A stretch of DNA of 64,000 nucleotides from assembly GCF_947259025.1 (NCBI RefSeq), contig NZ_CAMYKO010000002.1, positions 62,001 to 126,000 on the forward strand, written 5' to 3'. A program made the position numbers and the translations under genes. Of this stretch, positions 44,938 through 52,128 are shown piece by piece (within the stretch, counting starts at the first letter, position 1; each line of letters starts with the position of its first letter). The DNA comes from an uncultured Methylophaga sp. (GTDB lineage: Bacteria; Pseudomonadota; Gammaproteobacteria; Nitrosococcales; Methylophagaceae). The notes under the pieces are model-generated. The model was not told the DNA's origin. It searched no databases and saw nothing but the letters and a program-made list of their open reading frames with translations.

Positions 44938-45045
44938 TTTCCTGATCTGCCGGGGTTGAAGGCGCGTTAAGGCTGCAATAAGCTACCGCTTGAGAAAGCC
45001 ACGCCAGTAAAAGCTCTATTCTACAGCATTTGTAGAAATTATCAG

Positions 45046-45074
45046 TTGCTGACATAGCCCGGGACTGCTATATT
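45046..45074 (+). promoter_or_regulatory. Sigma70 promoter of rne
   Basis: TTGCTG (45046-45051), a 17-bp spacer, and TATATT (45069-45074). This places the start of transcription near 45081, giving an rne leader of about 470 nt. Confidence 0.65.
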
Positions 45075-45080
45075 CGCACG

Positions 45081-45551
45081 TTGGTTCGTGCGTAAAATGA
45101 GGTCAAAGTACTGGCCTGCGCTATGAAGACCAAAAACAATGTGTCGCTCCCTCCTGTGAGGTTGATGCGGCGCCTGGTAAAGAAATGAATTCAGCTGAAC
45201 AGGGGTTCAGCGGGTGGGCTCATTGGGAGTCCAGGAAGAACATCAGGTTCCCATGTCTTGATTGCCATCAGAACGAATAGAAAGACGCAACAGACAGGAC
45301 GACAAGTAATTAATAAAGCGCCGCAGGCAATCTGTTGCCACGGCCACAGCATAATCGCAGAAATCCTATTGCGATGACATTGAACTGAAACAGAAACTCA
45401 TGACCTGACGATGGGTGCATGAATGGCAAATAACACTAACAATTAATTACTGAACACAGACACAGTCGCTCTGTACGGCCCGGTTGGCCGAAGCGTCCAC
45501 ATCAGTGGTGTGCGGCAGGATATGCGGGAACCTCAAATTTGAGGTTAATGC
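45081..45551 (+). promoter_or_regulatory. Long structured 5' leader of rne
   Basis: A gene-free 470-nt transcribed leader with several stems. These include GCTGAAC/GTTCAGC with a 4-base loop (45194-45211), and a hairpin with internal loop CGCT..CGGCC-cggtt-GGCCG..AGCG (45467-45495). They also include CCAC/GTGG (45497-45508) and a perfect 18-bp palindrome (45529-45546) that contains the ribosome site. E. coli RNase E represses itself through hairpins in a 361-nt leader; this leader is likely a functional analogue. A 21-codon frame at 45123-45188 is also present. Confidence 0.6.
45529..45546 (+). promoter_or_regulatory. Palindrome covering the rne ribosome binding site
   Basis: AACCTCAAATTTGAGGTT is a perfect 18-bp palindrome. 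Its 3' arm contains GAGG (45541-45544), seven bases before the rne ATG at 45552. In RNA, the arms could pair intermolecularly, or as a hairpin with loss of the central bases, hiding the Shine-Dalgarno. Confidence 0.65.
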
Positions 45552-48170
45552 ATGAAACGAATTTTGATTAACGCAACCCATGAAGAAGAGTTGCGTGTGG
45601 CAATGGTTGACGGCCAGCGCCTGTTTGATTTGGATATCGATACCCCTTCCAGGGAACAGAAAAAAGGCAACATCTACAAAGGCAAAATTACCCGGGTTGA
45701 ACCCAGTCTGGAAGCTGTTTTCGTTGATTACGGCTCCGAACGTCAGGGCTTTCTGCCGCTCAAGGAAATTGCCAAAAGCTACTTCAAGAAACGCGACGGC
45801 AGCGATGACAAAAGCGGTCGCATCAACGTCCAGGATGTGCTCTCCGTCGGCCAGGAACTGGTTGTACAAATCGAGAAGGAAGAACGCGGTAACAAGGGCG
45901 CAGCGCTGACCACCTTTATCAGCCTGGCCGGTCGTTACCTGGTTCTGATGCCTAACAGCCCCCGTGCCGGAGGTATCTCACGCCGTATTGAAGGCGATGA
46001 CCGCGCTGAGCTGCAGGAAACCCTGCGCCATCTGGAAGTGCCCGATGATATGGGCATGATCGTGCGCACCGCCGGTGTCGGCAAACAGCCGGAAGAACTG
46101 CAATGGGATCTGGAATACCTGATCCAGTTGTGGACTGCGATTGATGTCGCCACCAAAGACCGCAGTGCGCCGTTTCTGGTCTATCAGGAAAGCAATATCA
46201 TTATCCGTGCGCTACGTGACTATCTGCGTAAAGATATCGGCGAAATCCTGGTGGATTCGCCCGAGGTCTACCAGACCGGTTACGACTTTATGCGCATGGT
46301 GATGCCGCATGAACTGAGCAAGTTCAAGCTGTATCAGGACAAGGTGCCGCTGTTTACCCGCTACCAGGTAGAAAGCCAGATCGAGAGTGCCTTCCGTCAT
46401 GAAGTACGCCTGCCTTCCGGCGGTGCGCTGGTGATTGACCCGACCGAAGCGCTGATCTCCATTGACGTGAACTCGGCCCGTGCCAACAAGGGCGGGGATA
46501 TCGAAGAAACGGCGCTCAATACCAACCTGGAAGCGGCCGAAGAAATCGCCCGCCAATTGCGCCTGCGCGACCTGGGTGGTCTGGTGGTGATCGACTTTAT
46601 CGATATGGGCCCCAGTCGTAACCAGCGCGAAGTCGAGAACCGTCTGCGTGATCACCTGAAAGCGGACCGTGCCCGCGTGCAGGTCGGCCGTATTTCCCGA
46701 TTCGGTCTGCTGGAAATGTCACGTCAGCGTTTGCGTCCGGCCTTGGGAGAAGCGCATCAGGAAATCTGCCCGCGTTGTGCCGGTCTGGGTCATGTTCGCG
46801 GTGTTGAATCTCTGGGCCTCGCTGTCCTGCGCCTGGTTGAAGAAGAAGCCACCAAGGACAAAATCACCCAACTGGTAGTGCAACTGCCGGTGCCGGTGGC
46901 GACCTTTATTCTCAACGACAAGCGGCTGCAGATCGAAGCGATTGAACAACGTCATAACGTCAAGATTGTGCTGATTCCGAACCCGCATCTGGACACACCG
47001 CATTACGATATTGAGCGCATTAAAGATGGCAACGCACGCAGTGAAGTCAGTCATCAGATGATCTCCACACCGGAAGCGGAAACGCCCGTGGTGCTGCGTG
47101 ACAAACCGGCGATGGAACAGCCCGCAGTGACTGGCGTGTCACCGGCAGCACCGGCACCGGTTGTGGTGCGGGACAATAAAGAGCAGGAACAAAAACCGAG
47201 CCTGCTGAAACGCCTGCTGAATGTGCTGACCGGCAAGCCGGAGGCGGAGGAGAGGGAAACCTCGTCAAAAGAAGAAAAATCTTCACAGCCACAACGCGGC
47301 CGCTCCCAGAATCGCGGTGGTGGTAATAACAATCGTGGTGGTCGCGGCAATGGCGAGCGCCGTAAGCCCCGTCGCCGTAACGACAATAGCAACAATAATA
47401 AACAGAGCGGTGATGATAAAAAGCCGGCGACTGACAACAAGAAAACCGACAATAATGACGACAGCAGTAACAACAACGGTAAGCCACGTAGTGGTAATGG
47501 CCGTCGTTCACGCCGCGGTGGTCGCCGTCGTCGTTCTTCACGGCCTGAGACTCAGGATCAGGCAGTACGTCAGGAGCAGGAAAAAGGCAATGTGGCACCG
47601 CAGCCAGAACCTGAGGTCAATGGTAATGCTATCCCCCAGCCTGAACCTGAAGTAAATGGCAATGTCGTCAAGGAGGATAAAGGCAACGAAGTGGATGGCA
47701 ACAAAGCGCCATCATCCAAGCCTAAGCGCAGCCGTTCTTCATCTGGTAGCAGTAACCGCCGCCGTCGCAGTGATGCCAGACAAAAACCGGAGACAGGGGA
47801 GAACAACAGCGAGTCCTCGGACAAGCAGTCTGCTGAGACCAAAGCGTCGCCTGCAGCAGATGACAAGCAGGATAGTGCCAACAAAAAGCCGCGTGCGCCA
47901 AGAAGCCGTCAGAATAAAGCTGACAGCACAGCGCAGAAGGGTGAGGCGAAAGCAGAGCCAAGCACTGAGAAGGCAAAAGCAGCATCTGCTGATAAGCCTG
48001 ATCAGAGCGGTCAGTCGGCAGCCCCGGCTGAAAGCCAGACTGCGAAGTCTGAGCCCAAAGCGCCGCAAACCGGTGTAGAAAAAAAGCTGGCTTCGGTTGA
48101 TAATGGCAAGGAAAGAAAACCCAAGGCCAAAACCGAAGCGAGTGCAACAACTGATGCCCCGGAACAGTAA
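45552..48170 (+). CDS. rne: Ribonuclease E
   Basis: Endoribonuclease central to mRNA decay and rRNA/tRNA processing, scaffold of the degradosome. The 872-aa protein has an S1 domain (about 37-125), RNase H-like/DNase I-like catalytic core with acidic sites in [12 protein letters not shown] and [12 protein letters not shown], and the zinc-link CPRCAGLGH. From about residue 510 to the end it is disordered and rich in Arg, Asn, Lys and Glu, the degradosome-scaffold type. It includes a 12-codon tandem repeat ([10 protein letters not shown] twice, 47598-47663). Shorter than E. coli's 1061 aa. Confidence 0.97.
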
Positions 48171-50376: not shown

Positions 50377-52128
50377 TTACTCCTGGAACTGCAGGCGGTG
50401 CAACTCGGCGTAATGATTATCACGGGCCAGCAGCTCCCTGTGGGTGCCAGTTTCCAGCACTTCACCGTTATGCATCACCACGATCAGATCAGCATTTTCA
50501 ATGGTCGACAGCCGGTGGGCGATGACCAGGGTAGTGCGTTGTTGCATCAGTGCTTCCAGGCCGGCCTGGATATGGCGTTCGGCTTCGCTGTCCAGCGCCG
50601 AGGTCGCTTCATCCAGAATCAGGATCGGTGCATCACGCAGCAGCGCACGGGCAATCGCCAGCCGCTGGCGCTGACCGCCGGATAGTAACACACCGTTTTC
50701 ACCGACCTGGGTTTGCAGGCCATCGGGCAGACGCTGGATAAAGTCCCAGGCGTGGGCTGACTTGGCCGCCTCGATAATCGCCTGTTCATTGACCTCACCG
50801 GCCTGACCATAGCTGATATTGTTGGCAATGGTGTCATTGAACAGTACTACCTGCTGGTTAACCAGCGATAGTTGACGGCGCAAATCAGTGAGTTTGAGCT
50901 CCTTAATATTGATACCGTCGATCAGGATTTGGCCACCATCAATGTTGTAGAAGCGTGCCAGCAGGCTGACCAGCGTGGTTTTACCGCTGCCGGAGTGACC
51001 AACAAAGGCCACGGTCTGCCCCGGTCTGGCTTCAAAAGACACCCGATCCAGCACGTTGCCCTTGTCTGGATTATAGGCAAAGCTGACATCGCGGTATTCG
51101 ATATGGCCTTCAGCGCGGCTGATGCTGCGCGGGCCGTCATCGATTTCCGGACGTTCATCGAGTAGTCGGAAGATGCTCTCCGCTGCCGCGATACCGGCCT
51201 GCAGTTTGGCATTGACCTTGGTCAGCCTTTTCATCGGCGTCAGCAGCATCATCATCGCTGTAACAAAGGAAATAAAATCCCCCACGGTAATTTCATCCAG
51301 CATACGCGGCAGGGTAGCGATATAAATAACCAGCGCCATGCCTACAGCAGCAATCAAAGCGGTCAGCGGCTGACTGATAGCGTCGGTGGCGATCTTTTTC
51401 ATCTGCTGGCGGCGATTGTGCTGGTTGACCCGGTCGAAACGTTTGATTTCATAATCCTGACCACCGAAGGTCTTGACCTCGCGATGGCCTTCGATAATTT
51501 CCCCGGAGACATGGCTGACATCGCCCATCGAATTCTGAATATGTTTACTGATACGACGAAAACGAATGCTGACGTAATACACCAGCAGGGCGATAAAGGG
51601 CACGGTAATCAGAATCAACAGCGATAGAAAGCCACTCAGGTAGAGCATCCAGGCCAGCAGCCCGATAATGGTCAGACTGTCGCGGATAATGGTCAGTACC
51701 GCATCGGTCGCGGCAGAGGCGACCTGCTCCACGTCATAGAGTAGCTTCGACATTAACTGGCCTGAAGTACTGTGATCGTAAAAAACCGACGGCAGCATCA
51801 ATAATTTATTAAACATCTGCTCGCGCAGCGTTTTGATGACATTGCGGGCAATCCAGCCCAGGCCATAAGTGGTAAAGAAATCCGCCAGGCCGCGCACAAT
51901 AAACAAGCCAATAATCGCCAGTGGCAGCAGTTGAATGACTTCAGGATCACGACCGACAAAGCCCTCATCCATCAGCGGTTTCATGATCATCGCCACCCCG
52001 GCCTCGGTGGCGGAGTAGACGACCATCGCAATGATGACCGCGATAAACGCCCGCCAGTACGGTTTGGCATAGTGCAACAGGCGCTTGTACAACTGTACAG
52101 CGCTCATTTCGGCATGGTTATCTGTCAT
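50377..52128 (-). CDS. msbA: Lipid A export ABC transporter MsbA
   Basis: Flips lipid A core across the inner membrane, energised by ATP. The 583-aa half-transporter has a six-helix transmembrane domain (about 20-325) and an ATPase domain (about 340-583) with Walker A GHSGSGKTTL, signature LLSGGQRQRL, and Walker B ILILDEATSALD. Its start overlaps exbD by 4 bp. Confidence 0.96.
   Translation of the reverse strand: MTDNHAEMSAVQLYKRLLHYAKPYWRAFIAVIIAMVVYSATEAGVAMIMKPLMDEGFVGRDPEVIQLLPLAIIGLFIVRGLADFFTTYGLGWIARNVIKTLREQMFNKLLMLPSVFYDHSTSGQLMSKLLYDVEQVASAATDAVLTIIRDSLTIIGLLAWMLYLSGFLSLLILITVPFIALLVYYVSIRFRRISKHIQNSMGDVSHVSGEIIEGHREVKTFGGQDYEIKRFDRVNQHNRRQQMKKIATDAISQPLTALIAAVGMALVIYIATLPRMLDEITVGDFISFVTAMMMLLTPMKRLTKVNAKLQAGIAAAESIFRLLDERPEIDDGPRSISRAEGHIEYRDVSFAYNPDKGNVLDRVSFEARPGQTVAFVGHSGSGKTTLVSLLARFYNIDGGQILIDGINIKELKLTDLRRQLSLVNQQVVLFNDTIANNISYGQAGEVNEQAIIEAAKSAHAWDFIQRLPDGLQTQVGENGVLLSGGQRQRLAIARALLRDAPILILDEATSALDSEAERHIQAGLEALMQQRTTLVIAHRLSTIENADLIVVMHNGEVLETGTHRELLARDNHYAELHRLQFQE

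Follow-up and report, generated by a model that had tools for sequence, protein, structure and literature searches.

The rne leader in the window (the whole 64,000-nucleotide stretch of DNA from an uncultured Methylophaga sp. analysed here) appears to be a two-state RNA, in which an upstream block can free the Shine-Dalgarno (SD) sequence and RNase E cleavage between the block and the ribosome-binding-site (RBS) hairpin would lock the leader OFF; we give this reading a probability of roughly 0.55. The distant block, which competes for the anti-SD strand, was missed by the earlier reading of this leader, called the original prediction below. The features discussed are the following:

45046 to 45074, + strand: promoter, with TTGCTG at 45046-45051, a 17-nt spacer and TATATT at 45069-45074 (extended -10 TG).
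45140 to 45174, + strand: hairpin HP-A, with GUCGC/GCGGC and CCUC/GAGG helices and an asymmetric internal loop holding a conserved UUGAU (match to our model R2).
45194 to 45211, + strand: hairpin HP-B, GCUGAAC/GUUCAGC, predicted with p 0.99 and with every pair intact in the alignment of 14 genus leaders.
45245 to 45260, + strand: anti-anti-SD block, AGGUUCC-CAUGUCUUG, from fixed-register pairing and covariation in the family and a masking test.
45305 to 45451, + strand: central domain, closed by a predicted long-range AU helix (45305-45314 with 45442-45451) and holding a hairpin at 45354-45375, from the pair probabilities of this one leader.
45516 to 45533, + strand: partner of the block, CAGGAUAUG-cg-GGAACCU, overlapping the anti-SD arm, from pairing and covariation in the family.
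45529 to 45535, + strand: anti-SD arm AACCUCA of the RBS hairpin, six core positions being paired in 50 of 52 leaders.
45540 to 45546, + strand: SD arm UGAGGUU of the RBS hairpin, with the SD GAGG at 45541-45544, from sequence comparison in the family.
45552 to 48170, + strand: rne (RNase E), an 872-aa open reading frame (ORF) starting at ATG 45552, with the same protein in relatives.

An rne match at E<=1e-60 was obtained in 53 of the 57 genomes of the window's family, and 52 leaders were usable (L054 was left out, as its contig ends too early). The window's own genome (2.7 Mb) carries two hexulose-6-phosphate synthase genes above the family cut-off, which together with the structure of GTDB points to a Methylophaga-like methylotroph. 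The promoter that the original prediction placed upstream of the leader is borne out by the relatives: at the same place, all 51 family leaders long enough to include it (one is cut off) have a TG-N-TATA(T/G)T box and a TTG-type -35, though the consensus scanner did not list the window's copy. The leader would begin near 45081, and leader lengths in the family would range from 463 to 545 nt. Near the 5' end of the window's leader we saw by eye three short ORFs that overlap; they look non-conserved in the alignments and were discarded. At the other end, the first rne codons (45559-45585) give a sub-threshold match to the Rfam nuoG model (22.3 bits, threshold 33) that is probably due to chance.

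The RBS hairpin lies where a perfect 18-nt palindrome holding a GAGG SD had been reported five bases before the rne start. We find this palindrome (AACCTCAAATTTGAGGTT) at 45529-45546, five bases from the ATG, its right half holding the SD. The local fold of the window's leader adds an outer stem (45521-45526 with 45549-45554), by which the start codon would also be enclosed. Judged by sequence, AACCUC-loop-GAGGUU stands just 5' of the ATG in 52 of 52 family leaders, with all six pairs in 50 of them; the two broken cells have an A in the outermost SD-side position. The hiding arm changes only from A to G and from C to U, wobble pairs thus being preserved (4 C to U; 8 A to G; 12 A to G at the outermost position, 11 of these facing U and one a changed base). 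Loops measure 5 nt in 27 leaders, 6 in 19, 38 in four, 9 in one and 4 in one, examples being UAACU, AAUAA and the 38-nt insert; in L041, L042, L044 and L045 this insert may fold as a hairpin of its own, with arms that differ yet match. With the four long loops excluded (48 leaders, 38 distinct), 99.1% of cells are paired in the hairpin core and 74.5% in the outer stem. The core of these 48 leaders shows neither two-sided changes nor an excess over shuffles, since its SD side, fixed by the SD itself, hardly varies. Occlusion of the SD, one of two routes offered by the original prediction, is thereby well supported from sequence comparison.

Stems of this kind are rare at start sites of the same genome: a perfect 7-pair stem with a loop of 3 to 8 nt covers the SD in only two of 250 SD genes in 464 kb, rne being one. 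In the window, a second start site near 51984 on the minus strand has a 7-bp stem over an SD-like GGTG word. By the broader measure, the cost of opening the start region, rne is less striking (22nd of 216 genes). The median opening cost is 10.8 kcal/mol in the family vs 6.3 for 85 other rne loci, sister-family leaders included; five of the six leaders fetched from the sister family have no such hairpin before the ATG (in the sixth the start was not recognised), and these five cost 1.1 to 5.5 kcal/mol. A shuffle test of occlusion gave P<0.05 in eight of 13 family leaders (in L041, one of those missed, the 5' arm falls beyond the part tested), in 22 of the 85 other rne loci, and in 11 of 145 genes of the window's genome, rne included. 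General occlusion of rne start sites is weak in a wider sample and was rejected. That sample comprised 100 of 174 matched class genomes, one per family label, of which four with a start reading MN were dropped; the remaining 96 starts have a mean z of 0.24 and a median of -0.10, with 12 at P<0.05 vs one of 63 rluC starts (P 0.05). Among 181 other rne loci, occlusion correlates with upstream complementarity (rho -0.30), and complementarity at P<=0.02 occurs in six of 34 hairpin carriers vs six of 147 others, both statistics ignoring kinship.

The second pairing, new here, joins the block (45245-45260) with 45516-45533, the two strands lying 255 nt apart, and by sequence comparison and folding would exclude the RBS hairpin. 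Its lower half (45253-45260 with 45516-45523) forms when the window's leader is folded in full and returns, with two-sided changes, in the consensus of 14 of the 21 genus leaders; its upper half sets AGGUUCC (45245-45251) against GGAACCU (45527-45533), the anti-SD strand. At fixed register in 39 of the 52 leaders, 88.5% of 390 cells pair vs 8 to 50% at slid registers. This count omits L050 (no block), three leaders with a 2-nt bulge, four whose block is a base shorter and five missed by the pattern, most of which still pair with the block in our other pairing analyses. Across positions 6 to 10, pairing with a leader's own partner was better than with a swapped one in each of 2000 trials. Position 6, mismatched in most leaders, is C in 31, never paired there, and another letter in eight, complementary in seven. 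Covariation in the long helix (30 distinct rows) amounts to 0.282 vs 0.230 +/- 0.012 in shuffles, of which 0 of 500 reach it, and 15 cells are changed on both sides vs 5.2 in shuffles; two of five measures are unremarkable, 53 of 500 shuffles reaching the five pairs that change on both sides and 223 of 500 the value for pair types, and none of these shuffle figures is a probability, because the rows are related. By our reading, the anti-SD segment finds its strongest duplex partner in the block in 43 of 52 leaders (mean z -1.9); taken singly, only 29 of 52 leaders reach P<0.05 for the duplex, and the anti-SD segment of the window's leader has its best duplex with the extreme 5' end. Taken together, the comparison supports both predicted pairings and their overlap.

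Folding energies also connect the block with the SD. In minimum-energy folds with the SD held open, 47 of 52 leaders pair their anti-SD arm with the block. If the 14-nt block is masked, the cost of releasing the SD rises by 2.9 kcal/mol vs 0.12 for random 14-nt masks (51 leaders), and in 36 of 51 leaders the block mask equals or exceeds all ten random ones. That cost also falls from 9.4 kcal/mol in the cut leader to 5.6 in the full leader. We rejected this drop as proof of a switch, since it is not specific: controls matched for opening cost drop nearly as much (3.2 at other rne loci, n 20, vs 4.2 in the family, n 41; P 0.09).

From these pairings a mechanism can be proposed. In the OFF state AACCUC (45529-45534) would pair with GAGGUU (45541-45546) and hide the SD; in the ON state the anti-SD strand would pair with the distant block and release it. 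The upper half of the long helix (AGGUUCC with GGAACCU) and the hairpin would be mutually exclusive, and the lower half, compatible with the hairpin core and incompatible with the outer stem, could serve as a toehold. Because the block and the anti-SD strand are transcribed before the SD, a new mRNA could begin ON. A cut by RNase E anywhere between block and hairpin would then detach the block, so that the mRNA downstream, besides undergoing normal decay, would stay locked OFF; we infer that such cleavage is the likeliest way to lock the leader. Switching of this sort, with RNase E as its agent, would constitute negative feedback.

Some of the same observations fit an arrangement that does not switch, in which the hairpin merely keeps rne translation low and the mRNA exposed to RNase E, while the block closes a domain. 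We consider this possible, if on the unlikely side. The hairpin is stable and universal in the family, the ON state is less stable than the OFF state (by 0.1 to 9.6 kcal/mol) in all 20 full leaders compared, and the Rfam rne5 structure of E. coli likewise has a domain-closing long-range helix upstream of the start. A pure closing helix, however, would not need a block that reaches into GGUUC and has the anti-SD strand for its partner, nor does it explain the harder release of the SD once the block is masked. An RNA thermometer, whose hairpin would melt on warming and release the SD, is very improbable: a short hairpin over an SD close to the start codon is what one would expect of it, but in all 11 leaders folded the SD is predicted to be paired at 10, 25, 37 and 45 C, the probability at the highest temperature being 1.00, and the upstream block is left unexplained. 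Equally little speaks for ribosomes that translate a short upstream ORF and open the hairpin as they cross it. The window does have a six-codon ATG ORF across the hairpin (-30 to -9), but a common start or frame is not seen among the leaders, L015, L016 and L019 have no ORF by the criteria used, and one-base differences in loop length shift the frame. The other route of the original prediction, an RNA dimer formed through the palindrome and cleaved as a duplex, suits the perfectly self-complementary 18 nt of the window but is more improbable still, as by our reading of the alignment only two of 52 leaders (the window's and L004) have the perfect palindrome and loops vary; conservation in relatives thus fails for the palindrome and holds for the hairpin (52 of 52), and with the symmetry lost and the arms kept the element is a hairpin over the SD and not a dimer element.

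To return to the two-state leader, it contains other elements besides block and hairpin. Three further upstream stems had been proposed, and further stems are predicted by our folding as well. HP-A, for which model R2 was built with the window's sequence among others, is a candidate protein-binding hairpin. Its pattern occurs in 50 of the 52 family leaders; of the other two, L010 is cut off and L050 (genus g4) has a differing HP-A, keeps the RBS hairpin and has no recognised upstream block. Over 38 leaders two-sided changes affect 24 cells of HP-A, a number that 0 of 500 shuffles reach, and an ordinary three of its pairs (348 of 500 shuffles). Outside the family, one Vibrio rne leader gives a weak match (E 0.0064 in 11 loci), and in five other class genomes with E<=0.01 the matches lie away from rne (10 kb off in G168, otherwise on other contigs). 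In the central domain, the hairpin at 45354-45375 has two-sided changes in the genus alignment, and the AU helix is absent from the consensus of that alignment.

The E. coli rne leader has a hairpin with a CA/UAAGA loop, which we take to be hp2. A similar hairpin (stem-CA-loop-UAAGA-stem) is present in 26 leaders of g3 and g4, sister genera within the window's family, and in an alignment of 31, completed by E. coli, a Vibrio and three Rodentibacter-like loci, seven of eight pairs change on both sides. In L017, L024, L028 and other g3 leaders it stands some 115 to 158 nt before the rne ATG; L027 and L030, also of g3, have weaker model matches only. The rne leader of L105, a record titled Pseudomonas stutzeri, resembles the Rodentibacter loci, and its label is possibly wrong. 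Nothing convincing of the hp2 type was found by pattern in 21 g1 and three g2 leaders (a match in L009, with five pairs and a 21-nt loop, was taken as chance) or with model R1 in the leaders of 16 g1 and three g2 loci. The strict pattern was absent from 96 class-wide leaders and occurred in one of 234 shuffled ones. That the window's genus has no recognised hp2-like hairpin may reflect the loss of a known RNase E sensor. In g3 the hairpin lies between block and RBS hairpin, and recruitment of RNase E there would separate the two.

Beyond the family, the six Alteromonas-like leaders we inspected (L064, L070, L078, L080, L090, L091) have an RBS hairpin of unrelated sequence, and in all six a GCCGUUU block 257 to 342 nt upstream pairs with the hairpin's 5' arm. 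In L113, L134, L108, L118, L232 and L069 a distant partner appears when the start region is forced open. We treat these twelve leaders as a lead, because they were selected for standing out, have no mask control and are subject to the general energy drop described above. An upstream block is conserved in the family and the six Alteromonas-like leaders, with similar topology at a few other loci. It is a tentative and rather doubtful extension that several gammaproteobacterial lineages have, in unrelated sequences, an RBS hairpin, an unlocking block some 200 to 430 nt upstream and RNase E cleavage that locks translation. If the switch is real, the leader would be a built-in device by which RNase E, a principal RNA-cleaving enzyme of this bacterium, could limit its own production. 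The enzyme's cut would also stop translation, a second and irreversible level of control, and the leader would be one more sign that rne leaders vary widely among lineages.

Autoregulation of E. coli RNase E is a classical case of feedback through mRNA decay. The leader studied here was predicted to differ from the E. coli type, and the Rfam check agrees: rne5 (RF00040; gathering threshold 180 bits, E. coli scoring 260) has no match in the window, nor in 44940-45700 at E<=10. Both are long, structured rne leaders in which a domain upstream of the start is closed by a long-range helix, and the sister genera carry a hairpin with the E. coli CA/UAAGA loop; the window's genus differs in having no recognised hairpin of that type, and in the conserved hairpin that holds the SD and start codon. 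Control of E. coli rne is described as cleavage and decay of its mRNA (PMC3997798). The rne-II motif (RF01756; gathering threshold 50 bits) is likewise a structured rne leader, listed for Pseudomonadales (PMC2864571); for P. aeruginosa, cleavage at this motif has been proposed (PMC8545117). It has no match at E<=10 in the window's own genome; 143 class genomes also gave none, so that this search is without a positive control. None of 20 rne loci from other Gammaproteobacteria (20 of 80 fetched) reaches the Rfam threshold for either rne5 or rne-II. In Synechocystis, RNase E cuts inside its own leader, as is proposed here; that leader differs in its U-rich cleavage site and premature termination, and the term Shine-Dalgarno is absent from the main text of the paper describing it (PMC10989929).

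Our literature searches returned nothing joining RNase E with an anti-anti-Shine-Dalgarno, or Methylophaga with RNase E and a leader. Leaders that carry anti-SD and anti-anti-SD strands, like translational riboswitches, rely on two mutually exclusive pairings of the anti-SD. The rne leader resembles them in its SD-bearing hairpin, present by sequence in 52 of 52 family leaders, and in a second conserved anti-SD pairing that, from comparison and prediction, would exclude the first (L050 excepted). It departs from them in that a ligand-binding domain was not identified, in the 255 nt between the strands of the second helix, and in its proposed trigger, which would be cleavage by the gene's own product.
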